From positions 5,014,501 to 5,078,500 of the forward strand of contig JBBCGG010000001.1 of NCBI GenBank assembly GCA_037200525.1: DNA of 64,000 nucleotides. The letters are read 5' to 3'. This document shows positions 17,526 to 52,451 of the stretch, in pieces. Each line of letters begins with the position of its first letter. Position 1 is the first letter of the stretch. A program made the position numbers and the translations under genes. The notes below the pieces were generated by a model that was not told the origin of the DNA, did no database searches, and saw nothing but the letters and a program-made list of their open reading frames with translations. This DNA is from Methylocella sp. (GTDB lineage Bacteria > Pseudomonadota > Alphaproteobacteria > Rhizobiales > Beijerinckiaceae).

Positions 17526-17966
17526 TTACCAGTGGAAAGTCACTCCCTCACCCATGCTGCAATCAAATTCCGCCTCATGGAAAATGGCGTAGGTGAGTGG
17601 GTTGAGTGAGAGTGAAAGCACATCGATTTTTCCCGTCGGCGCAACCTTAAACGAAAGAAGCCCGTTCACCGGCGTATTGTCGCTCCTGACAGTTAACCGC
17701 GTCGCCGAGAACGCGATGGTTTGATCACTTTGAATCATGAAACCATCTAAGTGCAGGCCTCCGCGAATCGAGGGACCTGGAGTGTTGGCGCCATGAACGA
17801 GGCATCTGGAAAGATCGAACGTCGCGCCGATGTCTCTGCCCTCCAGCGCCGCCTTTTCTAATTCTGCATAATTTCGACTGTCATCCGCAGCTGCGTCGCG
17901 GATAACGCCGAAGCTAGCCAACCCAGCCAGAAAGAAGACCCCGAAGGGAAAAACACGTGACCGCAT
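17526..17966 (-). CDS. VirK-family secreted protein
   Basis: 146 residues with a signal peptide (MRSRVFPFGVFFLAGLASFG, cleavage after DAAA). The mature part has the VirK family pattern: LEKAALEGRDIGATFDLSRC, then GPSIRGGLHLDGFMIQSDQT, IAFSATRLTVRSDNTPVNGL and FDCSMGEGVTFHW, with two conserved cysteines. VirK is known from Agrobacterium vir regulons and other host-associated bacteria; its function is poorly defined. The first 42 or so codons and the upstream region are part of the stretch duplicated at copy C, where the gene is truncated (49912-50061). Confidence 0.75.
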   Translation of the reverse strand: MRSRVFPFGVFFLAGLASFGVIRDAAADDSRNYAELEKAALEGRDIGATFDLSRCLVHGANTPGPSIRGGLHLDGFMIQSDQTIAFSATRLTVRSDNTPVNGLLSFKVAPTGKIDVLSLSLNPLTYAIFHEAEFDCSMGEGVTFHW

Positions 17967-18161
17967 ATATCATTACCTCGTCGATTTTATAGCCGACGCG
18001 GACCCCAGAGCGACGCCATCGGCTCCGATGCGTCTATGTCGTCGCCTTGTGCATTAGCAGTAGGGAACTGTCCACGTTTGCACGAAGCTGGCAGCTCGCT
18101 TTCCACAGACTTAGGGTTACGGCTGAAATTGATCATGGCTCCGCGGAGGGGCCTTTAGCGC

Positions 18162-18197
18162 TTGACTTTTCGCCTATCTAAACGTACGCTCAGTACG
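18162..18197 (+). promoter_or_regulatory. cassette A promoter with palindromic operator
   Basis: TTGACT (18162), a 17-base spacer and TACGCT (18185) form a sigma-70-like promoter 35-60 bases before the first gene. CGTAC-N5-GTACG (18183-18197) is a perfect dyad overlapping the -10 box. The same sequence is present in all three copies, and the shared part of copy B begins just upstream of it. Confidence 0.65.
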
Positions 18198-18223
18198 CGA
18201 GCGACCACAGGAAAGAGGCGCAA

Positions 18224-18925
18224 ATGGACAGTTCAATGCACACCCCCTTCATGCGCGCTCTGACGCGGGCGCTTAATCTCAACGAGGGGCAGCGGCTCAC
18301 GAAGGCGAAGCTCGAAGCAGTCCAAGGCTGCGCGACGCCGATTGAGGCATTCGCTGAAGCGGTCGACGCGATCATCGAGCATTCAGCGGGGCCGCGCATC
18401 CCTCAGGACGCCTCCGACCGAAAAGTGGGCGAGCACACCGATTACGAAGAAATCATCGAACTGCTCGGCAGGATACGGCCAGTTGTCGCGGCGGAACTTG
18501 ACGAGAGCTACGAGCCAGCGCTCGAGTCCGGCTTCGCCAATCTCAAAGCGCTTGTTCTTTGCTGGACGCACTTCATCGGAGGTCCCGCCGCTCCCGCTTA
18601 TCACGAATATAGCGCGTACGACCTGGCGGCCAACGAGCGCATTTGTCGGATGGCGGAGGCGACGTATCCGCATAGTTTGGCGCTCGTGAAAGTGCTCCGC
18701 GCCCAACTGGAAGTCATCATTAATGCGCGGCTGGCGGTCCGCCTAAATTCGAAACTCAAACTCGCTGCCGCGCAGGCTGAGCTCGACCGCCGGCAGTGGA
18801 ACGACCGATACCCGGATATGAAGCTCCTTTGGGCGCAGCGACAAACCCCTCCGAAGCTATCGCCGTTCATGCAAAGTCTCATGGACGCGCTTGGCCTTAA
18901 CGATTGTAAGGCGGCCATAAAATGA
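18224..18925 (+). CDS. phage-cassette protein 1 (unknown), copy A
   Basis: 233 residues, largely helical, no family recognised. Two short similar segments frame it: MHTPFMRALTRALNLNEGQ near the start and SPFMQSLMDALGLNDCKAA at the end, each an FM..L..ALGLN-type motif. The middle includes ANLKALVLCWTHFIGGPAAP and AHWQ-free helical stretches (RAQLEVIINARLAVRLNSKL). It has a good ribosome site (GGAAAGAGG). Its stop overlaps the next start (ATGA). Its place before a gp13/gp14-like pair suggests a virion or assembly protein, but this is inference. Confidence 0.85.
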   Translation: MDSSMHTPFMRALTRALNLNEGQRLTKAKLEAVQGCATPIEAFAEAVDAIIEHSAGPRIPQDASDRKVGEHTDYEEIIELLGRIRPVVAAELDESYEPALESGFANLKALVLCWTHFIGGPAAPAYHEYSAYDLAANERICRMAEATYPHSLALVKVLRAQLEVIINARLAVRLNSKLKLAAAQAELDRRQWNDRYPDMKLLWAQRQTPPKLSPFMQSLMDALGLNDCKAAIK

Positions 18926-19416
18926 AACTTGAAATTGATCTGCCTCAAGCCGTCTACGACGTCGCGCTAAAAATGCGTGCGCGGGACTTCGAAGAGCTCG
19001 AAGCCGTATCGCACATGAACACGCGAGAAGACCTGGCGCGTCTGCTGTCAGAGCGCTACGGCTCGCGCGCCGACGTGTTCGCCGTTGGGCTCGACGGCAA
19101 GCCGATCGCCATCTGTGGCCTCATCGGATTTCGGCCGAACGTCGTTTCGCTGCTCTTCTTTGCGACCGAAGAGTTTCCCGCGATCGTTGCGCCGCTGACT
19201 GAATACGTCCAACGCGAGGTTTTCGCGCCGGCTGTTGCCGCTGGCGTGCATCGGATCGAATGCGGATCGATGACGTCCTATCACGGCATCCATAGTTGGA
19301 TTGAAGCGCTTGGCCTCTCTCGCGAAGCAACGGTCAAAAAATGGGGCAAGGCCGGGCAGGATTTCGACATATACGCATGGGTTTCGAATGCCGACGCGCC
19401 GAACACGATTAACTGA
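18922..19416 (+). CDS. GNAT-fold phage protein (T7 gp13-like position), copy A
   Basis: 164 residues resembling the GNAT-like 'internal virion protein / acyltransferase' that precedes the gp14-like gene in T7-type and related podoviruses. Visible features are MRARDFEELEAVSHMNTRED, then DGKPIAICGLIGFRPNVVSL and FFATEEFPAIVAPLTEYVQR. The helix-strand tail HRIECGSMTSYHGIHSWIEA and LGLSREATVKKWGKAGQDFD matches the second half of a GNAT fold. The usual acetyl-CoA loop (Q/RxxGxG/A) is not evident, so a structural role is as likely as an enzymatic one. Confidence 0.8.
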   Translation: MKLEIDLPQAVYDVALKMRARDFEELEAVSHMNTREDLARLLSERYGSRADVFAVGLDGKPIAICGLIGFRPNVVSLLFFATEEFPAIVAPLTEYVQREVFAPAVAAGVHRIECGSMTSYHGIHSWIEALGLSREATVKKWGKAGQDFDIYAWVSNADAPNTIN

Positions 19417-19456
19417 CTCGGCAAATCCAACGGTCCGCGACACGGGAGAGGTTTAG

Positions 19457-20167
19457 ATGTGCGATCCAGTCACCATTGCAGGAATAGCCCTCAGTGGCGC
19501 CGGCGCTGCAGCGAAAACGATCGGCGCTGGACAGGTGGCCGACGCCACGGCAGCTTCGCTCTCCCAAAACCTCGCCGCGCAAAATGCTCTTAATCAAGAG
19601 GCGGCGGGCGTCAACTCTCATTCGCTCGGCCTCTATAGCAATCTACAGGGCCAACAGGACGCCAAAGCTAAGTCGCTCGGCGACATGTTCGTGCAGGACG
19701 TCGCGCCAACGCAGGCCAATCCAGAGAACGAAGCGCCGGGAGGCTCGGCCAATACGCAAGCCAATGAGGCGGCGGCGCGCGCTGTGACGCAGGGTTACTC
19801 CAATCAGCAGGCTCTTTCCGGCGCTAAGCTGCGATCGTTCGGCGATGTGCTGCAGAACGATACGTTGGCCCAGCAACAGGACGCCGCGAAGATCGGCCAA
19901 ATCAACAATTTCAAGCAAGGCGATACGAGCGTCTTGGGCCTCGAGCTCAATCAAGATAGCCACGCCGGCGACGGTTGGGATCTGGCCGGTTCGCTGGCGG
20001 AAGGCCTCGGCAGTCTCGGCGTAAAGGGCGCCGCGGCCTGGAAGCTCGCTAACCCCGGCGTGACGATGCCGTTCACGCCGGGCGGCGTCGGCAGCCCCGG
20101 TTTTAGTCTATTCGGGCTTCAGGGCGGAACGCCGCCACAGTCATCTAACCCATTCGCGATCGTTTAA
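19457..20167 (+). CDS. T7 gp14-like internal virion protein, copy A
   Basis: 236 residues. The N-terminus MCDPVTIAGIALSGAGAAAK is the characteristic start of gp14-like internal virion (ejection) proteins of podoviruses. It is followed by an Ala/Gln-rich helical body (SLSQNLAAQNALNQEAAGVN, LQGQQDAKAKSLGDMF) and a C-terminal part ELNQDSHAGDGWDLAGSLAE. In phages the protein is carried in the head and helps form the DNA channel through the envelope. The last 35 residues (from GVTMPFTPGG) differ from copies B and C, although all end SNPFAIV. No other phage structural gene adjoins it here. Confidence 0.85.
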   Translation: MCDPVTIAGIALSGAGAAAKTIGAGQVADATAASLSQNLAAQNALNQEAAGVNSHSLGLYSNLQGQQDAKAKSLGDMFVQDVAPTQANPENEAPGGSANTQANEAAARAVTQGYSNQQALSGAKLRSFGDVLQNDTLAQQQDAAKIGQINNFKQGDTSVLGLELNQDSHAGDGWDLAGSLAEGLGSLGVKGAAAWKLANPGVTMPFTPGGVGSPGFSLFGLQGGTPPQSSNPFAIV

Positions 20168-20365
20168 AACGGTCGCGTTCCCGACGCTCCCTGCCCGGCG
20201 ACCGGTTTGACCGGACAGGATGTCAGCTCCGCGATTGGAATGGCCAGCCCGCCGTTCGGCATTCCGGTTGAAATCGACGCAGAGGTCGGCATTGTTGCGT
20301 AAGTGCTCCGGACATTTCGCTATCCGCCCGGCTGGAATCAACCCGCGTGGGACCGAAACCGGCCG
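20168..20365. other. intergenic, no gene seen
   Basis: The first 30 bases continue the similarity with copy C; the rest has no recognisable content. Confidence 0.4.
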
Positions 20366-20842: not shown

Positions 20843-20892
20843 AACAGCGCACCGATGGGCCTGCGCGTTGTTGGTGTGCGTGCCGCTCTTGA

Positions 20893-24164: not shown

Positions 24165-24167
24165 CGG

Positions 24168-24860
24168 TTACCTCCCCGCCAATAAAGCCCCTACCGAGCT
24201 GCCCGGCGTCTCTCGCTTCGTGCCGAGCAGCGCCGCAATGGCGCTCCCGACCGTCGGAGGGTTGAACCCGTGCTGCAGCCATTGGTTGCCGAGATAGGCC
24301 TGAATCGGACGGGACATGATAAGTCGTCCGATCGCCGCGGGTGCGGCTAAGGCAGCCGCAACGCTGACGGGACCGGCCACCGCCAGCCCGCCGGCACCCA
24401 AACCGCCGGAAAGAAGATGCATTGCATAAGCGCGACCAGCCGTGCTCGAATCGGGCAGCGGCTTGAGCGCAGCTTCGCCCGAGCGCGCCAAATCAGCAAA
24501 ACCGCCGATGCCTTGAGCGTAATCTAGCCGGCTGTGGCCTTTCGCCACGACGCTCTTGATCTGTGTCGGCGAGACGTAGCCTTGCGCGCCGCCGAAAATC
24601 TCGCCCATGCCCGCGCCGCGGCTGGCGTCGGGTAGCACTTGCGGCAAATTCGTATAGTCCGGCGAGCTCACGGCGCCATCGCCCTGCTCGGTAGCATCGG
24701 CTTTCCTAATAATCAGACTATGAGTCGCAATGGTCTGACTTTGATCCACATGGCTTTCCTGCGCCCGCGCAATGAACACCGGGAAAGAAAACGCCGCGGC
24801 GACGCCCGATACGACCAAACATCGCGTCATCTGACGGACCATTACTTTATGTGTCGTCAT
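24168..24860 (-). CDS. chimeric protein: signal peptide joined to phage structural-protein tail
   Basis: 230 residues. Residues 1-35 look like a signal peptide (MTRCLVVSGVAAAFSFPVFI). From about residue 80 the sequence resembles the C-terminus of large podovirus internal-virion/tape proteins: RGAGMGEIFGGAQGYVSPTQ, KGHSRLDYAQGIGGFADLAR, SGEAALKPLPDSSTAGRAYA, then a glycine/alanine-rich membrane-like stretch and SRPIQAYLGNQWLQ. The join suggests a rearrangement that fused an exported protein start to a truncated phage gene. Whether it is expressed is unknown. Confidence 0.55.
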   Translation of the reverse strand: MTTHKVMVRQMTRCLVVSGVAAAFSFPVFIARAQESHVDQSQTIATHSLIIRKADATEQGDGAVSSPDYTNLPQVLPDASRGAGMGEIFGGAQGYVSPTQIKSVVAKGHSRLDYAQGIGGFADLARSGEAALKPLPDSSTAGRAYAMHLLSGGLGAGGLAVAGPVSVAAALAAPAAIGRLIMSRPIQAYLGNQWLQHGFNPPTVGSAIAALLGTKRETPGSSVGALLAGR

Positions 24861-26624: not shown

Positions 26625-26683
26625 TTGATTTCATTGGCGCGCCCAAGGGGAATCGAACCCCTGTTTTCGCCGTGAAAGGGCGA
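26625..26683 (-). repeat. attachment-site remnant: 3' half of tRNA-Glu(UUC), copy 2
   Basis: Same block as 7628-7683, in the same orientation. It is better preserved: on the minus strand the anticodon arm CGCCCTTTCACGGCG is present, followed by the T-arm and acceptor end with CCA. The 5' half is absent. It lies 155 bases upstream of the intact integrase. Confidence 0.87.
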
Positions 26684-26838: not shown

Positions 26839-28140
26839 TTGGCTCGCCAGAGCTCTTTCAGCAGTCGTGCCAGCCGGTGCGCCCTGCCTGCTTCCGACGC
26901 CCCACAATGGGAGGTGATCAGCCCAGGTCTTCGCCTTGGGTATCGTCGCGGGCGCGGGACGCAAGGGCGCGGCGGAACATGGCTTGCCGCCGGCCGCGGC
27001 GCTGACGGCGATAGAAAGCAAGTTAAGCTTGGGCGAGCGGATGACCTTCTGCCAGCAGATGGAAAGCGCGTGCTTTCCTGCGAACAGGCAAAAGACGCGG
27101 CGCGCCTCTGGCTTAAGAAATTGCGCGCTGGCGGTCCGACTGCCGCCGGACTGACCGTCGCCGGCGTCCTCGATCAATATTTCGACGCTCGAGCCGCCTC
27201 CGGCATGAAGTCGATCTATGACGCCAAGTCGCGCGCCGGCGTGCACATCCTGCCAAAGCTTGGGAAGTCGCTTGTCGCCGAGCTTACCGTCGATCAGGTG
27301 CGAAAGTGGCGCGACAGCATGGTTGCGGCGCCAAAGACGCTTCGTACCGGCAAATTCGCGACGAAAACCAACACTCGCACGGTTGATCTTTCGGACCCTG
27401 AGACCGCACGCCGACGGCGCGACACTGCGAACCGGACGCTTACAACTCTGAAGGCAGCTCTCAATTGGGCGTTCGATCACAGGCTAGTCGATGACGACAG
27501 CGCGTGGCGCCTCGTCAAACCATACCGAAGCACGACCTCGTCCCGTATTCGGTTTCTGACCTCGGCTGAACAGCAAGTCCTTGTCGACAACGCGGAGGGC
27601 GAATTGCGCGATCTGATCGCCGCGGCCCTCATGACTGGAGCGCGTTTTGGGGAGCTTGCGCGGCTATCTGTCCGCGACTTCGACCCCGTCAACGCATCGG
27701 TCTTTATCGCCGAGAGCAAGAGCGGCAAGGCGCGTCATATCCCGCTGACGGCCGGGTGCGTCGCGCTTTTCACTCGGCTTTCGGCCGACAGAGACAGGAC
27801 AGACCCTTTGCTTCGTCACGTTGACGGCAGATGGAAGCCCGCAGCCTACCATCGAGAGTTTAAGGCGGCCGTCGCGCGAGCCGAACTCAATGACATAACG
27901 CTTCACGAACTGCGCCACTCATACGCCAGCACAATGGTCAGGGCCGGCGCGCCGCTGATTGTCGTGGCGGAGGCACTCGGCCATTCCGGCACCCGGATGG
28001 TTGAGATGCACTACGCGCACCTCGCGCCGTCCTATGTCGCCGATACGATCCGGCGTACCGCTCCAGACCTGACAGAGAACGCCAATGAAAAATCCAAACA
28101 GGGTAACGAAATCCAACGCGGCGAGCGCAGCGCTGATTAA
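26839..28140 (+). CDS. tRNA-targeting tyrosine integrase, intact
   Basis: 433 residues from a TTG start. The N-terminal arm-binding domain contains GLRLGYRRGRGTQGRGGTWL. The core-binding domain contains GLTVAGVLDQYFDARAASGM. The catalytic domain has Arg in GARFGELARLSV, the HELRHSYAS box, LGHSGTRMVEM and nucleophile Tyr in HYAHLAPSY. It is paralogous to the broken integrase at 7821 and probably uses the same tRNA-Glu site. It should catalyse insertion and excision of the element that begins at 26625. Confidence 0.93.
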   Translation: MARQSSFSSRASRCALPASDAPQWEVISPGLRLGYRRGRGTQGRGGTWLAAGRGADGDRKQVKLGRADDLLPADGKRVLSCEQAKDAARLWLKKLRAGGPTAAGLTVAGVLDQYFDARAASGMKSIYDAKSRAGVHILPKLGKSLVAELTVDQVRKWRDSMVAAPKTLRTGKFATKTNTRTVDLSDPETARRRRDTANRTLTTLKAALNWAFDHRLVDDDSAWRLVKPYRSTTSSRIRFLTSAEQQVLVDNAEGELRDLIAAALMTGARFGELARLSVRDFDPVNASVFIAESKSGKARHIPLTAGCVALFTRLSADRDRTDPLLRHVDGRWKPAAYHREFKAAVARAELNDITLHELRHSYASTMVRAGAPLIVVAEALGHSGTRMVEMHYAHLAPSYVADTIRRTAPDLTENANEKSKQGNEIQRGERSAD

Positions 28141-28659: not shown

Positions 28660-29142
28660 CTATTTCGTGTTGAAGCCGAGCAATTTATATAAATCAAAAT
28701 CTTTCATCCAGGAGACGCTGACACTGTTGCAAACATCGGGAACTTTTCGATTGGCGCGCTGCTTGCTCGGCGCGGAAACCTCCTTGGTGACTACAATACG
28801 GCCTTGCCGGGCCAAGCCGTATGCAACCAGAAACGGGTCCTGCCCAACCTTCTCCAACTCACTATCTGTAAGGTTCGGGCCGTAGCCTGTCGTGAGGATG
28901 TGCTCGACCAAATCCTGATCTACCTCCTCATCAAGTACGAAGTACTGTTTCACGGCAGCACTGCAAATCCAGTCACGCAACGGCCCTTTCGAGACCGCGA
29001 TTTCCTGATGAATTTCGAATGGCAGCTTTACCAGATCGGCAGTCGCCTGTACCAGCAACCAGTCCCAGAATTGCGGAACCTGGTCGATGCCGTAATAGTC
29101 TTCCTGGGCACGGATCAGCACGTTTGCGTCAAGGAGATGCAC
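28660..29142 (-). CDS. DUF4411 PIN-like protein (putative toxin)
   Basis: 160 residues starting at GTG 29142, whose codon overlaps the preceding TAG (TAGTG). The start MHLLDANVLIRAQEDYYGID gives the first acidic residue of a PIN-like nuclease. Later acidic residues lie in LEKVGQDPFLVAYGLARQGR, and VVTKEVSAPSKQRANRKVPD, VCNSVSVSWMKDFDLYKLLG are DUF4411 signatures. Family members pair with HTH-ImmA/IrrE proteins as toxin-antitoxin-like modules, as here. Nuclease activity is inferred from the fold. Confidence 0.8.
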   Translation of the reverse strand: MHLLDANVLIRAQEDYYGIDQVPQFWDWLLVQATADLVKLPFEIHQEIAVSKGPLRDWICSAAVKQYFVLDEEVDQDLVEHILTTGYGPNLTDSELEKVGQDPFLVAYGLARQGRIVVTKEVSAPSKQRANRKVPDVCNSVSVSWMKDFDLYKLLGFNTK

Positions 29143-30413
29143 TAATATTTTCTCCTGAAGCCGGGTACGACGGCCCCGCGGCTGCTTTCGAACCGTCGGA
29201 GAAGAGGCTCCACTGAACCGGGGTTAACGCCGAGGACCTTCGCGGCCTTAGTGTGGCTCAGTTCATTGTTCCTCACGGTCCGGCGTACAAAATCGATCAG
29301 CGCGTTGCCGAGCTTAAATTGTTTGACGACGTAATAGGACGGCCCCCCTTCTGTCTCTCTGGCACTGTCCTTATCTCGCAGCTTTAGAGAGCGCCAGCGC
29401 GCGGCATAGGTCGCCTGCAGCTCGCGGTAGACTGCCGGCGTGATCCACCCACGCCGGTTGAGCCGGTGCGCCACCATCGGTTCGCTGACGCTCCACGTCG
29501 CGGCAATCCTGGCGATCGTACGCATAGCAGCGTCTTTGTCAGCACTATCGAAATCGTCCGGCTTGGCCAGTGGAACGGCGCTGTCCGGTAGCAAGAAGGC
29601 GCCGGCCACGTCGTTACAGAATTGCTCAACTTGCCCGACCGGAGTTCGCGGTTCAACCGCATCCGGGTTGCCACTCACGCCAGTCTCGCCAAGCCAGATA
29701 TGGGTCAATTCGTGGAGTAGCGTAAAGGCGCGTGCCGATTTGGCGTCCTGGTCGTTGATAACGACAAAGGGGGCAATCTTGTCCGCTATCGCGAAGCCCC
29801 TGAATACGGTCTCGCTAATAGCTGAGTGATGCGATCCAAGATCGCCGACCAGCAGAACAAACACACCGATTTGCTCGGTCCGGTTGCGCAGCTCGCGGAA
29901 AAGATCGTCTGGCGAGCTATTTCTTCCTCGCCGCCGGCGTTCTTCCTCGACGCCGAGGACCTCCGCAATACTGCTGACGACGGCCCCGACGCCGTCCCTG
30001 ATAGTCATAGAGGCGACGAAAGACAGGGGCTCGGCTTCCTCTTCGTCCTGCAGAAGGCTTTTGACCATCTCTTGCCGGGCACGGATATCGCGCAACAAGG
30101 CGTCGAGCATCGCATTTTCGCGGTCCGAGACGGTGTCAGTCAGTGTGCGGAAATCCTCGCCTCTGGCTCCCTTCTGAGGCGGCTGCTTCATGTAGAAGGT
30201 GATGAGAGGTCGCCGGTAAACAGTCGCGAACTTAGCAAGCTGGTTCCGCGTTGGAAACTTCGCGCCGGATTCCAGTTCTTCAAGCTTTTCGGCAGCGGAA
30301 ACCGTCTCGCTCGATGCTATACCAAGCCGAACGGCCGCATCATCGAGAGAAAGGCCTGCGGATTTTCTCGCCCATGCGAGAATGCCCGGATTGATGTTTT
30401 CAGCTCTCGCCAT
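29142..30413 (-). CDS. XRE-HTH / ImmA-IrrE metallopeptidase regulator
   Basis: 423 residues from ATG 30413. The N-terminal XRE helix-turn-helix is NPGILAWARKSAGLSLDDAA ... ELESGAKFPTRNQLAKFATV. The central M78 peptidase domain has the zinc motif HELTHIWLG (HExxH) and GQVEQFCNDVAGAFLLPDSA, whose Glu is the third-ligand type. A C-terminal extension, ALIDFVRRTVRNNELSHTKA with AKVLGVNPGSVEPLL, looks like a second HTH. It overlaps both neighbours by a few bases and is probably the antitoxin or regulator of DUF4411, cleaving or sensing a signal. Confidence 0.87.
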   Translation of the reverse strand: MARAENINPGILAWARKSAGLSLDDAAVRLGIASSETVSAAEKLEELESGAKFPTRNQLAKFATVYRRPLITFYMKQPPQKGARGEDFRTLTDTVSDRENAMLDALLRDIRARQEMVKSLLQDEEEAEPLSFVASMTIRDGVGAVVSSIAEVLGVEEERRRRGRNSSPDDLFRELRNRTEQIGVFVLLVGDLGSHHSAISETVFRGFAIADKIAPFVVINDQDAKSARAFTLLHELTHIWLGETGVSGNPDAVEPRTPVGQVEQFCNDVAGAFLLPDSAVPLAKPDDFDSADKDAAMRTIARIAATWSVSEPMVAHRLNRRGWITPAVYRELQATYAARWRSLKLRDKDSARETEGGPSYYVVKQFKLGNALIDFVRRTVRNNELSHTKAAKVLGVNPGSVEPLLRRFESSRGAVVPGFRRKY

Positions 30414-30703
30414 CAAGGCATAACCTTACCAAACTTGGATTTAAGCATCCCAACTGTGGGCGAAGCCGCCGTCCCGTCCAGGCCCCTCTTAATAGTTCTG
30501 CCCTTCCCGTCCGCAGGGTTAGCGACGCGGACCTTAGCTTTCGGCACTTTCACAGGAAACGGCAGCGCCTTCTCCGCCGCCACTTGTATTAACAGAATTC
30601 GAATGGCGTCCGAAACCGTCAGGCCCATGTCGGCCAGCACACTCGCCGCTGCATCCTTGACTTGCGCGTCAATCCGAGCGCGCACTACGCTGTCTGTCGG
30701 CAA
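30413..30703 (-). CDS. RelB/DinJ-family antitoxin-like protein
   Basis: 96 residues from TTG 30703, supported by AAGGAG 8 bases upstream. The ribbon-helix-helix pattern is SVVRARIDAQVKDAAASVLA, DMGLTVSDAIRILLIQVAAE, KALPFPVKVP, typical of RelB/DinJ antitoxins. Its TGA overlaps the start of the HTH-ImmA gene (TGATG). A perfect palindrome just upstream (30729-30740) may be its operator. No RelE/YafQ-type toxin is adjacent, which is odd; DUF4411 may be the partner. Confidence 0.82.
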   Translation of the reverse strand: MPTDSVVRARIDAQVKDAAASVLADMGLTVSDAIRILLIQVAAEKALPFPVKVPKAKVRVANPADGKGRTIKRGLDGTAASPTVGMLKSKFGKVMP

Positions 30704-31088: not shown

Positions 31089-31790
31089 ATGGCAGGAAGA
31101 AGAAGGACTTACGGGTTCTCGTTTTCCTGGAGGCGCGCGGTGGGAATATCGGCCGCTAAGGGGCGCCTATCACGAAAAATCGGCATTCCGCTGACGAGAT
31201 CGGGCCGAGAGCGCAAGGCTGGTCGAGCGCTTGGTCCGGCGATTATTGCGGCCTTCGCGGTCGGCATCGCCGTCGCGCCCAAATTCAGCAGCGGTGAGCA
31301 GACCTCAGCGACCGAGGCAACCCCTAACAGTCAATTCGTTGAAAAATCAACGGATATCCCGGACACACCTGCCGCCAACGCTGAAGCACCTAATCGGGAT
31401 ATTTCACCTCCCGCGTCTGCTTTGGCGGCACTTCCCACCAGCATCATGCCCTCCACATCGCGCCCTTCTTTCAATTGTGAGAAAGCCTCGAAGCGCATCG
31501 ACAGGGCGATTTGTGCCGATCCGGAGCTAGCTCGATGGGATTGGCGCTTGGGCGAGGCCTTGAATCGCGTATACGCTCAGCTTGACAAAAACGCGCGGCG
31601 ACGACTGCGTGACGAGCAACGCCGCTGGATTGTTGCCAGAGAAGTTCGGTGTCAGTCGTCCGCCGCTATGCCAGTTAACGACTGTCTCCTGCAGGAGACA
31701 AAGACGCGGACCTCAGCGCTGGAAACGCTCTCAACAAACGCATCGACGCTCGCGCGTGGAGCGCCCGACGTGAAAGATCGCCAGCGGTAA
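31089..31790 (+). CDS. LprI-type (DUF1311) protein with basic N-terminus
   Basis: 233 residues. The N-terminus YGFSFSWRRAVGISAAKGRL, then SRKIGIPLTRSGRERKAGRA is a distinctive basic motif that I recall from proteins near vWA/PP2C/kinase loci. A transmembrane helix follows (LGPAIIAAFAVGIAVAP), then a Pro/Ala/Ser-rich linker. The C-terminal domain, FNCEKASKRIDRAICADPEL ... LRDEQRRWIVAREVRC with four cysteines, is the LprI/DUF1311 lysozyme-inhibitor-type fold, here facing the periplasm. It is on the same strand and 134 bases upstream of the vWA gene, so it probably belongs to the triad. Confidence 0.75.
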   Translation: MAGRRRTYGFSFSWRRAVGISAAKGRLSRKIGIPLTRSGRERKAGRALGPAIIAAFAVGIAVAPKFSSGEQTSATEATPNSQFVEKSTDIPDTPAANAEAPNRDISPPASALAALPTSIMPSTSRPSFNCEKASKRIDRAICADPELARWDWRLGEALNRVYAQLDKNARRRLRDEQRRWIVAREVRCQSSAAMPVNDCLLQETKTRTSALETLSTNASTLARGAPDVKDRQR

Positions 31791-31924
31791 GAGAACGCCG
31801 CGCGCGCACAAACCCCCTGCTCGGAGTCTAGAACAAATATTGTTCGCCCCCAGCCAAGAATTTGCAATTGTATTGCGGATAATTGTATTCTGGAGGAGGT
31901 TCTTGGCGCGGGGGAAAGTCACGA

Positions 31925-32608
31925 ATGAGCGAGACCACATTCGACCAACGTCCATTCGGCGACGCCGTTTTCGCGGAAAACCCGGAGAACCGATGTCCAG
32001 TGCTTCTCCTGCTCGACAACTCGATGTCCATGCGGGGCCAGCCAATCAGCGAGTTGAACGGCGGCCTTCAACTCTTCCGCGACGAATTGTTTGCAGACTC
32101 GCTTGCCGCCAAGCGCGTCGAGGTTGCAATCGTGACATTCGGGCCTGTCAAGGTCGAAACCGACTTCACCGGCATCCAACATTTCTATGCCCCAACGCTC
32201 GCAGTCGCCGGGGACACACCTATGGGCGCTGCGATCGAGCAAGGTCTGGCACTGTTACATGGACGCAAGGATGCCTACAAAGCGAACGGCATTTCCTACT
32301 ACCGTCCTTGGGTGTTCTTAATAACCGACGGAGGGCCGACAGACTCCGTTTCCCGTGCGTCGCAGCTTGTTCGCCAGGGCGAAAACGAGAAATCGTTCGT
32401 TTTTTATACCGTCGGCGTCGAGGGCGCAAACTTCGAAATCTTGAAACAGATCAGCGTTCGTGAGCCTCTCAAGCTCCAGGGCCTTCGGTTCCGTGACCTT
32501 TTCCAATGGTTGTCGGCATCGTTGTCTTCCGTCTCCCGCTCAAATCCAGGCGATGCCGTGCCTCTTGCGAACCCCACCGCACCGAACGGCTGGGCGACCG
32601 TGGAATGA
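31925..32608 (+). CDS. vWA domain protein, TerY-like
   Basis: 227 residues from ATG 31925. A single von Willebrand A domain with a complete MIDAS metal site: DxSxS in [13 protein letters not shown], the threonine in [13 protein letters not shown], and the acidic residue in [16 protein letters not shown]. This is the TerY-type first component of vWA-phosphatase-kinase triads described in tellurite/stress-type loci. It probably acts as a metal-dependent protein-binding partner. It overlaps the phosphatase gene by 4 bases. Confidence 0.9.
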
Positions 32609-37071: not shown

Positions 37072-37112
37072 GCGCGGCGAATGCGTAACCGCGCCGGTCG
37101 TGAGATTCGCCT

Positions 37113-37826: not shown

Positions 37827-37866
37827 CTAAACCTCTCCCGTGTCGCGGACCGTTGGATTTGCCGAG

Positions 37867-38361
37867 TCAGTTAATCGTGTTCGGCGCGTCGGCATTCGAA
37901 ACCCATGCGTATATGTCGAAATCCTGCCCGGCCTTGCCCCATTTTTTGACCGTTGCTTCGCGAGAGAGGCCAAGCGCTTCAATCCAACTATGGATGCCGT
38001 GATAGGACGTCATCGATCCGCATTCGATCCGATGCACGCCAGCGGCAACAGCCGGCGCGAAAACCTCGCGTTGGACGTATTCAGTCAGCGGCGCAACGAT
38101 CGCGGGAAACTCTTCGGTCGCAAAGAAGAGCAGCGAAACGACGTTCGGCCGAAATCCGATGAGGCCACAGATGGCGATCGGCTTGCCGTCGAGCCCAACG
38201 GCGAACACGTCGGCGCGCGAGCCGTAGCGCTCTGACAGCAGACGCGCCAGGTCTTCTCGCGTGTTCATGTGCGATACGGCTTCGAGCTCTTCGAAGTCCC
38301 GCGCACGCATTTTTAGCGCGACGTCGTAGACGGCTTGAGGCAGATCAATTTCAAGTTTCAT
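37867..38361 (-). CDS. GNAT-fold phage protein, copy B
   Basis: 164 residues, identical in sequence to the copy A protein at 18922-19416, and overlapping gene 1 of the cassette by 4 bases. No disabling change, so this copy should be functional if transcribed. Confidence 0.8.
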   Translation of the reverse strand: MKLEIDLPQAVYDVALKMRARDFEELEAVSHMNTREDLARLLSERYGSRADVFAVGLDGKPIAICGLIGFRPNVVSLLFFATEEFPAIVAPLTEYVQREVFAPAVAAGVHRIECGSMTSYHGIHSWIEALGLSREATVKKWGKAGQDFDIYAWVSNADAPNTIN

Positions 38362-39059
38362 TTTATGGCCGCCTTACAATCGTTAAGGCCAAGCGCGTCC
38401 ATGAGACTTTGCATGAACGGCGATAGCTTCGGAGGGGTTTGTCGCTGCGCCCAAAGGAGCTTCATATCCGGGTATCGGTCGTTCCACTGCCGGCGGTCGA
38501 GCTCAGCCTGCGCGGCAGCGAGTTTGAGTTTCGAATTTAGGCGGACCGCCAGCCGCGCATTAATGATGACTTCCAGTTGGGCGCGGAGCACTTTCACGAG
38601 CGCCAAACTATGCGGATACGTCGCCTCCGCCATCCGACAAATGCGCTCGTTGGCCGCCAGGTCGTACGCGCTATATTCGTGATAAGCGGGAGCGGCGGGA
38701 CCTCCGATGAAGTGCGTCCAGCAAAGAACAAGCGCTTTGAGATTGGCGAAGCCGGACTCGAGCGCTGGCTCGTAGCTCTCGTCAAGTTCCGCCGCGACAA
38801 CTGGCCGTATCCTGCCGAGCAGTTCGATGATTTCTTCGTAATCGGTGTGCTCGCCCACTTTTCGGTCGGAGGCGTCCTGAGGGATGCGCGGCCCCGCTGA
38901 ATGCTCGATGATCGCGTCGACCGCTTCAGCGAATGCCTCAATCGGCGTCGCGCAGCCTTGGACTGCTTCGAGCTTCGCCTTCGTGAGCCGCTGCCCCTCG
39001 TTGAGATTAAGCGCCCGCGTCAGAGCGCGCATGAAGGGGGTGTGCATTGAACTGTCCAT
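38358..39059 (-). CDS. phage-cassette protein 1 (unknown), copy B
   Basis: 233 residues, identical to copies A and C. It has the same ribosome binding site and the same promoter/dyad upstream. A transcription terminator for upstream genes lies about 80 bases before it, which insulates the cassette. Confidence 0.85.
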   Translation of the reverse strand: MDSSMHTPFMRALTRALNLNEGQRLTKAKLEAVQGCATPIEAFAEAVDAIIEHSAGPRIPQDASDRKVGEHTDYEEIIELLGRIRPVVAAELDESYEPALESGFANLKALVLCWTHFIGGPAAPAYHEYSAYDLAANERICRMAEATYPHSLALVKVLRAQLEVIINARLAVRLNSKLKLAAAQAELDRRQWNDRYPDMKLLWAQRQTPPKLSPFMQSLMDALGLNDCKAAIK

Positions 39060-39085
39060 TTGCGCCTCTTTCCTGTGGTCGCTCG

Positions 39086-39121
39086 CGTACTGAGCGTACG
39101 TTTAGATAGGCGAAAAGTCAA
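39086..39121 (-). promoter_or_regulatory. cassette B promoter with palindromic operator
   Basis: Same TTGACT-N17-TACGCT and CGTAC-N5-GTACG dyad as in copy A, read on the minus strand. Confidence 0.65.
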
Positions 39122-39140
39122 GCGCTAGGCCCGAGGCAAA

Positions 39141-40273: not shown

Positions 40274-40858
40274 TCACATCAGCCGGTAGACGTGTTGCCT
40301 CGAAATCCCGAGAGCTTTTGCGATAGCGCTGGCCCCCATGCCCTCGGCCTTCATCTGCTTTGCCCGATCGACGTCCGTCGTCGCTGGCCGTCCCCGATAC
40401 TTCGAAGGATCATTGGCCTTTGCGTGCGCAATTCCCGCGCGCTGGGCTTCCCTCGTCGCTTCTGCCTGGGCTTCGCCCATCGCGGCCATGAAACCGATCA
40501 GCGCATCGCGCACGGCTTTCTGCATTGGGTCAGTAATCGCCCCGTCGAAAGTCATGTTGTTGATCACGGTTTTGACGATAACACCCCGCGCCAAGAGCTC
40601 GCGGATCGTTTTAGTCACATCCGCATAATTCCTTCCGAGCCGGTCAATCCAACGCACAATCAGCACGTCTCCGGGCCGCAGTACATCGAGGACGCGGCCC
40701 CCTCCGGGACGGTCTGCAAAGAGCGTGTTCACGCCCGAGACGCCCTCGTCTTCGATCGTTCGGTCTATCTTGAAGCCGGCTTGCTCGGCTTGCTGGCGTT
40801 GCAGGCCGACGGTCTGATCGCTTGTGCTCACTCGAGCGTAAAGGATGGTCTGGCTCAT
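40274..40858 (-). CDS. serine recombinase, resolvase/invertase family
   Basis: 194 residues. The catalytic serine is in ILYARVSTSDQTVGLQRQQA. Active-site arginines lie in LIVRWIDRLGRNYADVTKTI and FMAAMGEAQAEATREAQRAG. The C-terminal DNA-binding HTH is KQMKAEGMGASAIAKALGIS followed by RQHVYRLM. It is of Tn3 resolvase / DNA invertase size. A large dyad lies directly upstream (40868-40934). No Tn3 transposase is in the window, so the partner transposon may be lost. Confidence 0.92.
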   Translation of the reverse strand: MSQTILYARVSTSDQTVGLQRQQAEQAGFKIDRTIEDEGVSGVNTLFADRPGGGRVLDVLRPGDVLIVRWIDRLGRNYADVTKTIRELLARGVIVKTVINNMTFDGAITDPMQKAVRDALIGFMAAMGEAQAEATREAQRAGIAHAKANDPSKYRGRPATTDVDRAKQMKAEGMGASAIAKALGISRQHVYRLM

Positions 40859-41887: not shown

Positions 41888-42154
41888 TCACTCAAACGCG
41901 TCGACCTCATCCTCGTCCGGCGCGCCGCGCTCGGCCCGCGGAGCGCTGGAGGTTGTCGGCGCCCTTTGATGGCGACGGACAATCCGGTTTAGTTCCTCCG
42001 CAGTTAATTCCGACAAAGGCTTGTCATCGGCCGCGGCGTCGGTCTTGTCGAACAGTCCCGCCGCCCTGAAAATTGATGTCGCGGCAGTCGCGCGCGCCGG
42101 CGCCGGGGCTTTTGGATCATTGCAGACGGAGCGCAAGGCGGCGAAGGCCTCTTC
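41888..42154 (-). pseudogene. hypothetical protein, 5' end lost at IS3
   Basis: The C-terminal 88 residues of a protein: ALRSVCNDPKAPAPARATAA, SIFRAAGLFDKTDAAADDKP, LSELTAEELNRIVRRHQRAP and an acidic tail. The helix-rich part resembles small accessory proteins near phage terminases, which I cannot confirm. The N-terminus is missing where the IS3 copy begins at 42155. Confidence 0.55.
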
Positions 42155-42221
42155 TGGTCTGCCCCCTGAAAAGTGATCCTCCGTGAAGTATGGGCTTATG
42201 AGCCTGATGGAGGACTGCGCA

Positions 42222-42500
42222 ATGCCGAGGAAAAGACACAAGGCGGAAGAGATCGTCGCGAAGCTACGGCAAGTCGAAGTGCTTAGCGCGCAAGGGCGAC
42301 CGGTCGCGGAGGCGATCCGCTCGATAGGGGTGACGGAAGTTACATACTATCGATGGCGGTCGGAATACGGCGGCCTGAAGGGCGATCAGGTGAAGCGGCT
42401 GAAGGAGCTGGAGGCGGAGAATACGCGGCTCCGTCGAGCGGTGTCCGATTTGACGCTTGAGAAGCTGATCCTGAAAGAGGCTGCCTCGGGAAACTTCTGA
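42222..42500 (+). CDS. IS3-family transposase OrfA
   Basis: 92 residues, identical to the protein at 22-300: HTH domain and leucine-zipper-like end. The last codons contain the heptamer G-GGA-AAC (42488-42494) just before the stop, a standard -1 slippage site. OrfA and the OrfAB fusion are therefore both expected. Confidence 0.92.
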   Translation: MPRKRHKAEEIVAKLRQVEVLSAQGRPVAEAIRSIGVTEVTYYRWRSEYGGLKGDQVKRLKELEAENTRLRRAVSDLTLEKLILKEAASGNF

Positions 42501-42523
42501 GCTCCGCGCGTCGTCGCGCCTGC

Positions 42524-43390
42524 GTGGAGCATGTGATCGCCGAACATGGCGTTCCCGAGCGGTTCGCTTGCCGGGTTCTCGGTCAGCATCGCTCCACGCA
42601 GCGCAAGGTTCCGACCAAGCCCGATGACGAAGCGGCATTGACCGCCGACATCACGGCGCTCGCCATCCAGTACGGCCGCTATGGCTACCGCCGCATCACG
42701 GCGATGTTGTGGGAGCGAGGCTGGAAGGTCAACGTCAAACGGGTCGAGCGGATCTGGCGACGCGAGGGGCTGAAAGTTCCGGCCAGACAACCCAAGCGCG
42801 GGCGTCTCTGGCTCAATGACGGCTCGTGCGTCCGGCTGCGCCCGCAATGCCCCAACCACGTCTGGTCCTATGACTTCGTCGAGGACCGCACTCATGATGG
42901 CAGGAAATATCGCATGCTGAATATCATCGACGAATTTACCCGCGAATGCATCGCGATCAGGATTAACCGGAAGCTGAAGGCAGCGGACGTCATCGACGTT
43001 CTCTCGGACCTCTTCATCTTGCGAGGGGTTCCGATCCACATTCGTTCCGACAACGGCCCGGAGTTCATCGCCAAGGCGTTGCGTGACTGGATTGCCGCCG
43101 TCGGCGCGAAGACCGCCTACATCATGCCGGGCAGTCCCTGGGAGAACGGCTATTGCGAGAGCTTCAACTCGAAGCTGCGCGACGAGCTTTTGAATGGTGA
43201 AATCTTCTACACTCTCAAGGAGGCGAAGGTCGTCATTGAGCGATGGCGACGCCACTACAACACCGTGCGCCCGCACTCATCGCTGGGCTACAAGCCGCCA
43301 GCCCCGAAGACCCTGCAATGGCCGGCTTCGCAATCCGGACCAGCTTCGCCCGCCACGCCAGCAATAGCGCCAGGGCCGACAATGCACTAA
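42524..43390 (+). CDS. IS3-family transposase OrfB
   Basis: 288 residues of the rve-type DDE integrase domain. In the fusion it is preceded by LSSARRRACV. Catalytic Asp lies in VWSYDFVEDRTHDGRKYRML, the second Asp in IRSDNGPEFIAKALRDWIAA and the Glu in PGSPWENGYCESFNSKLRDE. The frame is intact, so this copy may be able to transpose, and to act on copy 1. Confidence 0.93.
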   Translation: MEHVIAEHGVPERFACRVLGQHRSTQRKVPTKPDDEAALTADITALAIQYGRYGYRRITAMLWERGWKVNVKRVERIWRREGLKVPARQPKRGRLWLNDGSCVRLRPQCPNHVWSYDFVEDRTHDGRKYRMLNIIDEFTRECIAIRINRKLKAADVIDVLSDLFILRGVPIHIRSDNGPEFIAKALRDWIAAVGAKTAYIMPGSPWENGYCESFNSKLRDELLNGEIFYTLKEAKVVIERWRRHYNTVRPHSSLGYKPPAPKTLQWPASQSGPASPATPAIAPGPTMH

Positions 43391-43424
43391 CATTCAAACT
43401 GGATCACCCCATGGGGGCAGGCCA

Positions 43425-47729: not shown

Positions 47730-47731
47730 CC

Positions 47732-48425: not shown

Positions 48426-48426
48426 C

Positions 48427-49911: not shown

Positions 49912-50061
49912 TTAAGGTGGTTGGCCGGTGCCTTCATCCAACACAGCCTTTTCCAGTTCCGCATAATTTCGACTGTCATCCGCAGCTGCGTCGCGGATAA
50001 CGCCGAAGCTAGCCAACCCAGCCAGAAAGAAGACCCCGAAGGGAAAAACACGTGACCGCAT
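49912..50061 (-). pseudogene. VirK-family gene truncated at cassette C edge
   Basis: The first 40 or so residues match the VirK-family protein at 17526-17966 (signal peptide, then DDSRNYAELEKA). The sequence then departs (VLDEGTGQPP) and stops at 49912. The break coincides with the left edge of the repeat shared with copy A, so the fragment was carried along when the region was duplicated. Confidence 0.85.
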
Positions 50062-50256
50062 ATATCATTACCTCGTCGATTTTATAGCCGACGCGGACCC
50101 CAGAGCGACGCCATCGGCTCCGATGCGTCTATGTCGTCGCCTTGTGCATTAGCAGTAGGGAACTGTCCACGTTTGCACGAAGCTGGCAGCTCGCTTTCCA
50201 CAGACTTAGGGTTACGGCTGAAATTGATCATGGCTCCGCGGAGGGGCCTTTAGCGC

Positions 50257-50292
50257 TTGACTTTTCGCCTATCTAAACGTACGCTCAGTACG
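50257..50292 (+). promoter_or_regulatory. cassette C promoter with palindromic operator
   Basis: Same TTGACT-N17-TACGCT with CGTAC-N5-GTACG dyad as in copies A and B. Confidence 0.65.
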
Positions 50293-50318
50293 CGAGCGAC
50301 CACAGGAAAGAGGCGCAA

Positions 50319-51020
50319 ATGGACAGTTCAATGCACACCCCCTTCATGCGCGCTCTGACGCGGGCGCTTAATCTCAACGAGGGGCAGCGGCTCACGAAGG
50401 CGAAGCTCGAAGCAGTCCAAGGCTGCGCGACGCCGATTGAGGCATTCGCTGAAGCGGTCGACGCGATCATCGAGCATTCAGCGGGGCCGCGCATCCCTCA
50501 GGACGCCTCCGACCGAAAAGTGGGCGAGCACACCGATTACGAAGAAATCATCGAACTGCTCGGCAGGATACGGCCAGTTGTCGCGGCGGAACTTGACGAG
50601 AGCTACGAGCCAGCGCTCGAGTCCGGCTTCGCCAATCTCAAAGCGCTTGTTCTTTGCTGGACGCACTTCATCGGAGGTCCCGCCGCTCCCGCTTATCACG
50701 AATATAGCGCGTACGACCTGGCGGCCAACGAGCGCATTTGTCGGATGGCGGAGGCGACGTATCCGCATAGTTTGGCGCTCGTGAAAGTGCTCCGCGCCCA
50801 ACTGGAAGTCATCATTAATGCGCGGCTGGCGGTCCGCCTAAATTCGAAACTCAAACTCGCTGCCGCGCAGGCTGAGCTCGACCGCCGGCAGTGGAACGAC
50901 CGATACCCGGATATGAAGCTCCTTTGGGCGCAGCGACAAACCCCTCCGAAGCTATCGCCGTTCATGCAAAGTCTCATGGACGCGCTTGGCCTTAACGATT
51001 GTAAGGCGGCCATAAAATGA
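50319..51020 (+). CDS. phage-cassette protein 1 (unknown), copy C
   Basis: 233 residues, identical to copies A and B, same ribosome binding site, stop overlapping the next start. All three copies lack nonsense changes, which speaks for recent duplication or continued selection. Confidence 0.85.
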   Translation: MDSSMHTPFMRALTRALNLNEGQRLTKAKLEAVQGCATPIEAFAEAVDAIIEHSAGPRIPQDASDRKVGEHTDYEEIIELLGRIRPVVAAELDESYEPALESGFANLKALVLCWTHFIGGPAAPAYHEYSAYDLAANERICRMAEATYPHSLALVKVLRAQLEVIINARLAVRLNSKLKLAAAQAELDRRQWNDRYPDMKLLWAQRQTPPKLSPFMQSLMDALGLNDCKAAIK

Positions 51021-51511
51021 AACTTGAAATTGATCTGCCTCAAGCCGTCTACGACGTCGCGCTAAAAATGCGTGCGCGGGACTTCGAAGAGCTCGAAGCC
51101 GTATCGCACATGAACACGCGAGAAGACCTGGCGCGTCTGCTGTCAGAGCGCTACGGCTCGCGCGCCGACGTGTTCGCCGTTGGGCTCGACGGCAAGCCGA
51201 TCGCCATCTGTGGCCTCATCGGATTTCGGCCGAACGTCGTTTCGCTGCTCTTCTTTGCGACCGAAGAGTTTCCCGCGATCGTTGCGCCGCTGACTGAATA
51301 CGTCCAACGCGAGGTTTTCGCGCCGGCTGTTGCCGCTGGCGTGCATCGGATCGAATGCGGATCGATGACGTCCTATCACGGCATCCATAGTTGGATTGAA
51401 GCGCTTGGCCTCTCTCGCGAAGCAACGGTCAAAAAATGGGGCAAGGCCGGGCAGGATTTCGACATATACGCATGGGTTTCGAATGCCGACGCGCCGAACA
51501 CGATTAACTGA
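51017..51511 (+). CDS. GNAT-fold phage protein, copy C
   Basis: 164 residues, identical to copies A and B; see copy A for the fold and its likely role next to the gp14-like gene. Confidence 0.8.
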   Translation: MKLEIDLPQAVYDVALKMRARDFEELEAVSHMNTREDLARLLSERYGSRADVFAVGLDGKPIAICGLIGFRPNVVSLLFFATEEFPAIVAPLTEYVQREVFAPAVAAGVHRIECGSMTSYHGIHSWIEALGLSREATVKKWGKAGQDFDIYAWVSNADAPNTIN

Positions 51512-51551
51512 CTCGGCAAATCCAACGGTCCGCGACACGGGAGAGGTTTAG

Positions 51552-52265
51552 ATGTGCGATCCAGTCACCATTGCAGGAATAGCCCTCAGTGGCGCCGGCG
51601 CTGCAGCGAAAACGATCGGCGCTGGACAGGTGGCCGACGCCACGGCAGCTTCGCTCTCCCAAAACCTCGCCGCGCAAAATGCTCTTAATCAAGAGGCGGC
51701 GGGCGTCAACTCTCATTCGCTCGGCCTCTATAGCAATCTACAGGGCCAACAGGACGCCAAAGCTAAGTCGCTCGGCGACATGTTCGTGCAGGACGTCGCG
51801 CCAACGCAGGCCAATCCAGAGAACGAAGCGCCGGGAGGCTCGGCCAATACGCAAGCCAATGAGGCGGCGGCGCGCGCTGTGACGCAGGGTTACTCCAATC
51901 AGCAGGCTCTTTCCGGCGCTAAGCTGCGATCGTTCGGCGATGTGCTGCAGAACGATACGTTGGCCCAGCAACAGGACGCCGCGAAGATCGGCCAAATCAA
52001 CAATTTCAAGCAAGGCGATACGAGCGTCTTGGGCCTCGAGCTCAATCAAGATAGCCACGCCGGCGACGGTTGGGATCTGGCCGGTTCGCTGGCGGAAGGC
52101 CTCGGCAGTCTCGGCGTAAAGGGCGCCGCGGCCTGGAAGCTCGCTAACCCCGGCATAACGCCTCCATTCTCGCCGGGCGGCATTGCGAACGGCTTTAATC
52201 CGTTCGGCTCAGCACGCACGGCCGACACAACCGCGCCGGCCTCCAATCCGTTCGCGATCGTTTGA
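51552..52265 (+). CDS. T7 gp14-like internal virion protein, copy C
   Basis: 237 residues with the MCDPVTIAG start. The tail reads GITPPFSPGGIANGFNPFGS, ARTADTTAPASNPFAIV: nearly copy B's tail in amino acids, although this copy's outer flanks match copy A. Ends TGA at 52265. Confidence 0.85.
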   Translation: MCDPVTIAGIALSGAGAAAKTIGAGQVADATAASLSQNLAAQNALNQEAAGVNSHSLGLYSNLQGQQDAKAKSLGDMFVQDVAPTQANPENEAPGGSANTQANEAAARAVTQGYSNQQALSGAKLRSFGDVLQNDTLAQQQDAAKIGQINNFKQGDTSVLGLELNQDSHAGDGWDLAGSLAEGLGSLGVKGAAAWKLANPGITPPFSPGGIANGFNPFGSARTADTTAPASNPFAIV

Positions 52266-52451
52266 AGCAATCGCGTTCCCGACGCTCACTGCCTTGAGGA
52301 CGGGTGATTCCTTGGCAATGCCCTGAATTAAAGCCGCCTTCGGCTCGACGCTCGATCGCGCAGTCGGTTCGGTCATACCAGGCGCGGGTTTACTCGGCCA
52401 TGTGTAGGGGCGATCCTGCTCGTTGGGAGGTAAGCGCTTAGCCGAGGCCGT

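Follow-up and report, generated by a model that had tools for sequence, protein, structure and literature searches.

A 64,000-nt stretch of the genome of Methylocella sp. (assembly GCA_037200525.1, a single contig of 5.24 Mb), hereafter the window, carries three copies of a gene cassette encoding the protein P0001, a GNAT-like protein and a protein resembling gp14 of phage T7. With a probability of about 0.58, these cassettes represent the end at which virion proteins are encoded in a family of integrative islands resembling phage satellites, which would bring their own ejection proteins to hijacked virions and which carry defence-like cargo. The anatomy and distribution of the islands can be read directly from the genomes. 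Flanked by direct attachment (att) repeats, they span 14.7 to 22.7 kb and are inserted at a tRNA-Glu 3' end, with an integrase adjoining the att repeat far from the tRNA. They further encode a primase, an HGGxSTG-type protein with a 112-residue protein after it, a serine recombinase, then podovirus-type internal-virion and DNA-ejection proteins in various subsets, and cargo. In the following, G denotes genomes (the own genome being G000) and L denotes loci.

Anatomy and distribution of the islands

A search of the rest of the genome, as proposed in the first-pass annotation of the window, revealed one complete further cassette (copy D, G000:3986544-3988591) and a partial one (copy E, 4188707-4189585), the latter stopping at a 1,270-bp insertion sequence (IS) inside the GNAT gene. 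Copy D belongs to an island of 22,680 bp, which extends from the 3' end of tRNA-Glu(CTC) to a repeat of that end with one mismatch. The tRNA is located at attL and an open integrase frame adjoins attR, while the cassette is preceded by a DUF5906/VapE primase, the HGGxSTG protein and the 112-residue protein. The 37-base att pattern occurs six times in the genome when allowing up to two mismatches, that is, twice at island D, once at island E (tRNA-Glu(TTC)), twice in the window and once at 5224559.

Among 99 genomes, P0001 is encoded in two (own and G011) and the third cassette protein in four (own, G003, G008 and G009), so that relatives of the cassette proteins are present in 5 of the 15 genus members in this set. 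Islands bounded by tRNA-Glu att repeats measure 17,890 bp in G003, 21,693 bp in G009 (attR with four mismatches) and 20,376 bp in G011; in G008 the island ends were not found. Using the 112-residue protein as sole bait, 11 of 397 genomes of the order were matched including the own one (10 of 396 others), and among 385 genomes of the class only the own genome. The contexts of seven of the ten other matches in the order were examined (L143-L149). An HGGxSTG relative adjoins the 112-residue protein in all seven of these outgroup loci, primase matches were obtained by tblastn in four, the other three showing a frame of 814-913 amino acids (aa) without family assignment in that place, and a serine recombinase is hinted at by first residues alone. 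Podovirus-type ejection genes (gp14-, gp15- or gp16-like) are found in six of the seven: gp15- and gp16-like genes in L145, L146 and L149, all three types in L147, a truncated gp16-like gene in L144 and a gp14 gene in L148. In L143, the ejection-gene place is taken by a 1,099-aa gene without recognised family. L145 (G366) is 14.7 kb long and lies between the two copies of an exact 52-bp repeat at tRNA-Glu(TTC). Att repeats together with an integrase are present in island D, G009, G011 and L145, and in G003 with a broken integrase. A serine recombinase of the kind encoded in the window is shared by all six islands compared (D, E, G003, G008, G009 and G011). Signs of a regulator are a 116-aa protein of G009 matching HTH_17 (4.5e-4, below the Pfam cut-off) and the excisionase/regulator family phrog_66 in 3 of 111 island proteins.

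For identifying phage genes, profiles built from phages related to Rhizobium phage RHph_N65 were run over six frames (E 0.01) of 14 regions, comprising seven island-bearing chromosome regions and the seven outgroup loci. The profiles for major capsid (16 sequences), terminase (11), portal (12), scaffold (14), two tail genes (19 and 49), endolysin (3) and lysin (4), as well as those for four further tail-region genes, gave no match in any of the 14 regions; the same holds for single-sequence queries with the DNA polymerase and three other genes. The GNAT, gp14, gp15-like and gp16-like profiles did match in these regions, as did that of the phage helicase/primase; one gp16-like match in G003 (6430-8658) falls outside its island. 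In a complementary census, 149 genes were called in ten islands and loci, the window's broken islands and island E lying outside this set. One gene spanning two loci was dropped, 37 (primases, integrases, recombinases, ISs and some cargo) were left out, and the remaining 111 were scanned against PHROGs. They matched 34 families; among the 25 of these that were listed, virion families were limited to internal virion protein, with four members, and DNA ejection protein, with three. Accordingly, by the RHph_N65-type profiles and the listed PHROG families, the islands have no capsid, portal, terminase or tail genes of their own, and head, tail, packaging and lysis genes of a complete prophage are not found between their att sites. 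A complete prophage around the cassettes, the concern raised at first pass, was likewise not found, as judged by capsid, terminase, portal and tail profiles of the RHph_N65 type.

The ejection genes come in differing subsets: P0001, GNAT and gp14 in D; gp16-like, GNAT and gp14 in G008 and G009; P0001, a 588-aa gene and a gp16-like gene in G011; and gp14, gp15 and gp16 without GNAT in L147. The gp15- and gp16-like genes of L145, L146, L147 and L149 are of usual length. Other own loci (L045-L055) also lack capsid, terminase, portal and tail matches with these profiles; ejection-type genes occur in L045 and L047 and are absent from L049-L055. As a control, seven of eight other own primase loci (20-kb stretches, L049-L055) are free of ejection and capsid matches, the eighth (L045) having an ejection-type gene. 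A terminase of the RHph_N65 type is not encoded in the own genome, where other terminase families were not searched genome-wide; a single Terminase_6 match at 4208511, interrupted by an internal stop, lies beyond the tRNA from island E.

Searching the order with the GNAT protein yielded 30 of 397 genomes including the own one. Of 12 contexts examined by tblastn none was counted as an island: ten showed GNAT alone, L151 an RHph_N65-like prophage region, and L160:3290-9582 (G171) a stretch of about 6 kb with a partial GNAT relative as well as a primase match, which might be a further island type. For the 112-residue protein and the genus-type ejection protein, a pattern scan detected no relatives in viral contigs. 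RHph_N65 itself holds a weak relative of the 112-residue protein (1.1e-4; L163:22172-22993), and weak matches also lie inside 303-aa frames of two order genomes of 1.5-1.6 Mb (L138 in G423 and L139 in G218). A small terminase subunit was considered for the 112-residue protein from its appearance alone, and this idea was supported by no search.

Defence-like genes in the islands are represented by a PDC-S65 match in G003 (2e-203), a type IV restriction-like gene in G011 (6e-27) and DUF626_VIII in G008 (3e-20). The G003 gene corresponds to a 526-aa SIR2-like protein situated beside the ejection genes (L030:7423-9000; PADLOC match to PDC-S65). Two large genes of the same island (L030:1728-6487) resemble, by their first residues, what we take to be an error-prone polymerase pair. 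In two islands, the gp14-like gene is directly flanked by NACHT-pentapeptide or alpha/beta-hydrolase-TPR proteins (L027:14767-18003 and L031:1064-4054), so that perhaps a slot for cargo adjoins the ejection genes. In G009, a second, different att-bounded stretch of 18.5 kb (3386095-3404599) occupies the same site in a tandem arrangement; it encodes a separate integrase and contains several unknown genes.

Cassette proteins and copies in the window

The 164-aa GNAT-like protein matches phrog_308 (internal virion protein, 5e-5) and phrog_4177, and its AlphaFold2 (AF2) model reached a mean confidence (pLDDT) of 91.8 with GNAT acetyltransferases as top PDB matches. In RHph_N65, a relative is placed between tail-region and ejection genes. 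In line with fold and family, the protein is predicted to be a GNAT-fold internal virion protein, and the GNAT label given at first pass holds. The third protein is homologous to the RHph_N65 gene preceding the putative injection protein and is found at about 1e-44 by the profile built from RHph_N65-type phages. Its gp14-like label is thus based on sequence family and on gene order, with a place before gp15- and gp16-like genes, in podovirus-type phages such as RHph_N65; the name also fits the size and gene place reviewed in PMC8954989. P0001 did not match anything in Pfam, PHROGs, NCBIfam, phage records or viral contigs. Its relative in G011 precedes the 588-aa gene and a DNA ejection protein (phrog_26400). 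The 588-aa gene is not found by the injection-protein profile; it is 24% like a gene of phage contig L070 which itself matches the RHph_N65 injection protein. A common family of P0001 and a 209-aa protein in like position in G008, G009 and G003 was not supported by profile comparison (probability 1.5%), and neither of the two matches the 205-aa gene of RHph_N65.

Copy A occupies window positions 18149-20197 on the forward strand (P0001 18224-18925, GNAT-like 18922-19416, gp14-like 19457-20167), copy B 37109-39132 on the reverse strand (P0001 38358-39059, GNAT-like 37867-38361, gp14-like 37113-37826) and copy C 50244-52293 on the forward strand (P0001 50319-51020, GNAT-like 51017-51511, gp14-like 51552-52265). 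All nine frames are open at the places first described, and the P0001 and GNAT-like proteins are identical across all copies, without a single DNA difference in either gene. When aligning the bodies of A, B, C and D as four segments (702, 495, 40 and 594 columns), no pair differs at any position over 1,827 bp (window 18224-20050), corroborating the supposed identity of the body DNA, and the retained part of copy E adds 0/702 and 0/108 differences. Beyond this block the copies diverge. The final 112-120 columns of the gp14-like gene show 5 to 31 differing positions, and the 75 bp upstream of P0001 contain four variable positions. The third protein has 236 aa in copy A, compared to 237 aa in the other two window copies. 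An upstream flank of about 300 bp is common to A (17842-18149) and C (49937-50236) and is absent from B, D and E. A relative of this flank (83-84%) without cassette was noticed at 3059167 (L009:9153-9476). The IS66 element found after copy C is present once more some 1.5 kb away from this relative. In the parts that can be aligned beyond the cassette and its immediate upstream region, islands D and E are 73-83% alike.

An identical block between diverged ends would be the trace of gene conversion or recent recombination, which agrees with the early suggestion of copies maintained by recombination. Assembly duplication, in contrast, is unlikely as the source, because all copies are located on a single contig and differ from each other in context, flanks and gene ends. 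Terminal inverted or direct repeats above chance were not detected in A, B, C and D (longest 6-8 bp; shuffles mostly 6-8 bp). Likewise, a conserved promoter, presumed at first pass, did not emerge: a consensus scan around copy A gave one site, on the other strand, versus 0.9 expected.

The window also holds broken pieces of islands. An att repeat at 26635-26671 (reverse strand) corresponds to the tRNA-Glu(TTC) 3' end and agrees without mismatch over 50 bp with the tRNA gene at G000:4198487-4198562, and a second one with one mismatch lies at 7638-7674 (reverse strand). Together they bound a 19,034-bp stretch (island Y) containing copy A. Adjoining the repeat at 26635 is an open tyrosine integrase of 433 aa (26839-28140, forward strand), 99% identical to that of island D (G000:3999008-4000309), and adjoining the repeat at 7638 is a broken integrase in two pieces of different frames (7836-9111, forward strand). 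A primase-start remnant of the D type (6064-6412) and a fragment related to the ejection protein of the islands (24168-24860; profile 9e-25) are both on the reverse strand. Copy B lies beyond the att repeat at 26635, surrounded by this integrase, a serine recombinase (40274-40858, reverse strand), which like its counterparts in D and E separates the 112-residue gene from P0001, and the 112-residue core protein (41891-42154, reverse strand), which is cut at 42155 by the 1,270-bp IS (42155-43424; HTH_21 and rve integrase core). Other copies of this IS abut the break of copy E, occur in island D and extend across the left edge of the window (L010 19098 to window 366). A right-hand att repeat for the island around copy B was not found. 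The notion of a stand-alone cassette does not apply to D, E and, judging from its neighbours, B, which are in integrated islands. A lies between att repeats, and no core adjoins A or C; in origin, the copies do not stand alone. An inversion mediated by ISs, by which island E would have been linked with the window, was thought through, did not yield the observed order and was dropped.

Possible island cargo near the integrase is an HTH plus Peptidase_M78 protein (29142-30416, reverse strand; RmrA-like in PADLOC, 4e-13) paired with a DUF4411 gene (28660-29142). Beside copy B, the stretch 31089-36461 encodes an LprI-domain protein, a VWA protein, a PP2C phosphatase and a 1,028-aa protein which combines peptidoglycan-binding domains with a weak match to kinases, possibly signalling or defence cargo. 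At the right end (59110-64000 and L011), a reverse-strand frame of 4,674 aa continues past the window edge; with internal repeats about 3.2 kb apart, it resembles what is presumably a non-ribosomal peptide synthetase.

Role and origin of the ejection genes

In short-tailed phages, ejection proteins precede the DNA and form a conduit across the cell envelope (PMC8954989), and phage P22 is described to package foreign ejection proteins, some changes in them lifting SieA exclusion (PMC10883804). In the proposed satellite cycle, infection by a short-tailed helper phage would be followed by excision of the island and its replication with the own primase, a gene present in the islands and, by tblastn, in four of the seven outgroup loci. 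The island's ejection proteins would then enter helper procapsids, and the packaged island would be delivered via a conduit consisting partly or wholly of its own proteins. With such a conduit, the island might choose the route across the envelope, evade superinfection exclusion aimed at the helper conduit, or spoil helper particles. In the strain studied here, several islands would have accumulated and then been broken up, at least partly by ISs, with the cassettes kept identical by recombination. Among the three roles guessed at first pass, the satellite-type element is best supported by the island anatomy, its helper behaviour being deduced, and spare genes maintained by recombination fit the identical body, whereas a domesticated role found no specific support. 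The full proposal, a Rhizobiales satellite family at tRNA-Glu which hijacks podovirus heads and tails and installs its own ejection conduit, so that the satellite and not the helper decides on envelope crossing, is more tentative, and we would put it at somewhat below even odds.

Pairwise omega values (NG86 method) amount to 0.05-0.16 for GNAT, 0.06-0.27 for gp14 and 0.09-0.29 for the genus ejection protein, compared to 0.20-0.52 for the outgroup gp16-like genes and 0.50 for one primase pair; many pairs have a dS close to 1 or beyond it, which makes these values rough. Judged by these ratios, purifying selection acts in the genus on the genes for GNAT, the gp14-like protein and the ejection protein. 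In phylogenetic trees, the island GNATs (four rows) form one clade (97/99) apart from 16 phage GNATs, and the gp14s of the genus (seven rows) form one clade as well (93/93). The gp14s of L147 and L148 are placed among the phage ones in an open part of the tree, and ejection genes may therefore have been captured more than once.

Several observations weigh against a satellite role. Satellite behaviour and use of the ejection proteins are both deduced from anatomy. The whole GNAT-gp14-gp15-gp16 set was in no island seen, and some single swaps in P22 (Sf6 gp16 or gp20 alone) gave no plaques (PMC10883804), so that partial ejection sets may not work. An RHph_N65-type terminase is encoded in one of ten island-bearing genomes (G187) and in none of the other nine, hence a helper would usually come from outside. 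The census of virion families covers the 25 listed of 34 PHROG families. The AF2 model of the gp14-like protein (pLDDT 47) is useless, leaving this label, upheld by homology and gene order, without structural support, and P0001 has a single remote relative (34%, G011). The outgroup gp15-like genes appear weakly constrained (omega 0.42-0.81, itself weak evidence). No island core directly adjoins copies A and C. Beyond the cassette, B and E still agree to 98.7% over 1,884 bp, so that in this pair the cassette does not stand out. Finally, the primases of G008, G009, L145, L146, L147 and L149 are related to the RHph_N65 helicase/primase (4e-21 to 1e-85), which would also suit descent from such phages.

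The latter relationship is what decayed podovirus prophages would leave behind, having lost head, tail and packaging genes and kept ejection genes by chance. Such decay would also account for ejection genes homologous to and ordered as in RHph_N65-type phages, for the weak RHph_N65 match to the 112-residue profile (1.1e-4) and for a window full of broken pieces. However, the ejection-only core is met repeatedly within the genus and in further families of the order, the 14 regions show no trace of capsid, portal, terminase or tail, the intact frames of the genus are under purifying selection, and island GNATs and genus gp14s form clades of their own, rendering chance retention unlikely. The defence-like genes of the islands (PDC-S65 in G003, the type IV restriction-like gene in G011, DUF626_VIII in G008) could instead reflect an anti-phage weapon, with island proteins poisoning or outcompeting those of an infecting podovirus and the island itself not being packaged. 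Incomplete ejection sets would suit spoiling rather than replacement, but integrase, att sites and replication core are not explained by a weapon alone, and usual-length gp15- and gp16-like genes are kept in L145, L146, L147 and L149; we regard this explanation as rather unlikely. It is very unlikely that the cassette itself is mobile, or a host-domesticated gene set, and spread by transposition or duplication independently of islands. Total identity of the body and the 300-bp flank shared by A and C, both lacking an adjacent core, could be understood in this way; yet end repeats above chance are missing at A, B, C and D, the copies B, D and E retain island neighbours, and the differing 3' ends of gp14 are what the overwriting of older copies would be expected to leave.

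Relation to known satellites

Compared to known systems, the satellite-like islands show partial likeness to several types. With the PICMIs (phage-inducible chromosomal minimalist islands) of Vibrionaceae they share integrase, DUF5906 primase, defence-like genes, the lack of capsid remodelling genes and possibly an AlpA-type regulator (PMC10803314). PICMIs, however, integrate at fis and the type element has 6.1 kb (PMC10803314), whereas the islands described here are 15-23 kb long, carry podovirus-type ejection genes and have tRNA-Glu 3' ends as att repeats. Capsid-forming phage-inducible chromosomal islands (cf-PICIs) and Mulch/Flayer likewise encode part of the virion (PMC10690885), there capsid and packaging genes, while here ejection-type genes alone were found. 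P4-like elements, PICIs and PICI-like elements (PLEs) are also chromosomal islands dependent on helper phages (PMC11389934), but the main text of that article mentions no ejection genes. Satellites without any virion genes, in the wording of PMC13376191, differ as well, since internal virion and ejection proteins are present here. The islands are accordingly classed as satellite-like, outside the PICMI and cf-PICI types.

On the phage side, RHph_N65 and related phages have relatives of the GNAT, gp14, gp15-like and gp16-like genes in the same order. In contrast to the islands, these are full phages: in 15 of 22 viral contigs with GNAT the stretch examined includes a major head protein relative, and five more show tail-region genes; of the remaining two, L075 begins inside GNAT and L081 shows GNAT alone. 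The gene order in L147 resembles T7 gp14-gp15-gp16 and P22 gp7-gp20-gp16. The sizes of its gp15- and gp16-like proteins (465 and 675 aa) and of the third protein in the window (236-237 aa) are within published ranges, whereas its gp14-like protein (268 aa) exceeds the listed 181-240 aa (PMC8954989). Moreover, the island genes are carried outside a phage genome.

By title and abstract, no satellite with ejection genes was found in the open-licence PMC literature. Satellites are described there either as devoid of virion genes or as elements that make the capsid smaller, redirect it or replace it (PMC11389934, PMC13376191, PMC10690885). The word "ejection" does not occur in the main texts of these three articles and of PMC10803314, and is confined to the reference lists in PMC13216270, PMC6893505 and PMC12926258. 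If the satellite reading is true, the islands would be the first satellites in the literature searched to have retained solely those virion genes that serve delivery to the next cell. The ejection conduit, which in P22 can be altered so as to lift superinfection exclusion (PMC10883804), would then be a battleground between satellites and helpers. A marker set for finding more islands is provided by the tRNA-Glu att site, the primase, the pair of HGGxSTG and 112-residue proteins and the serine recombinase. As natural mixes of ejection proteins, the islands may indicate which parts must match head and tail and which the recipient.

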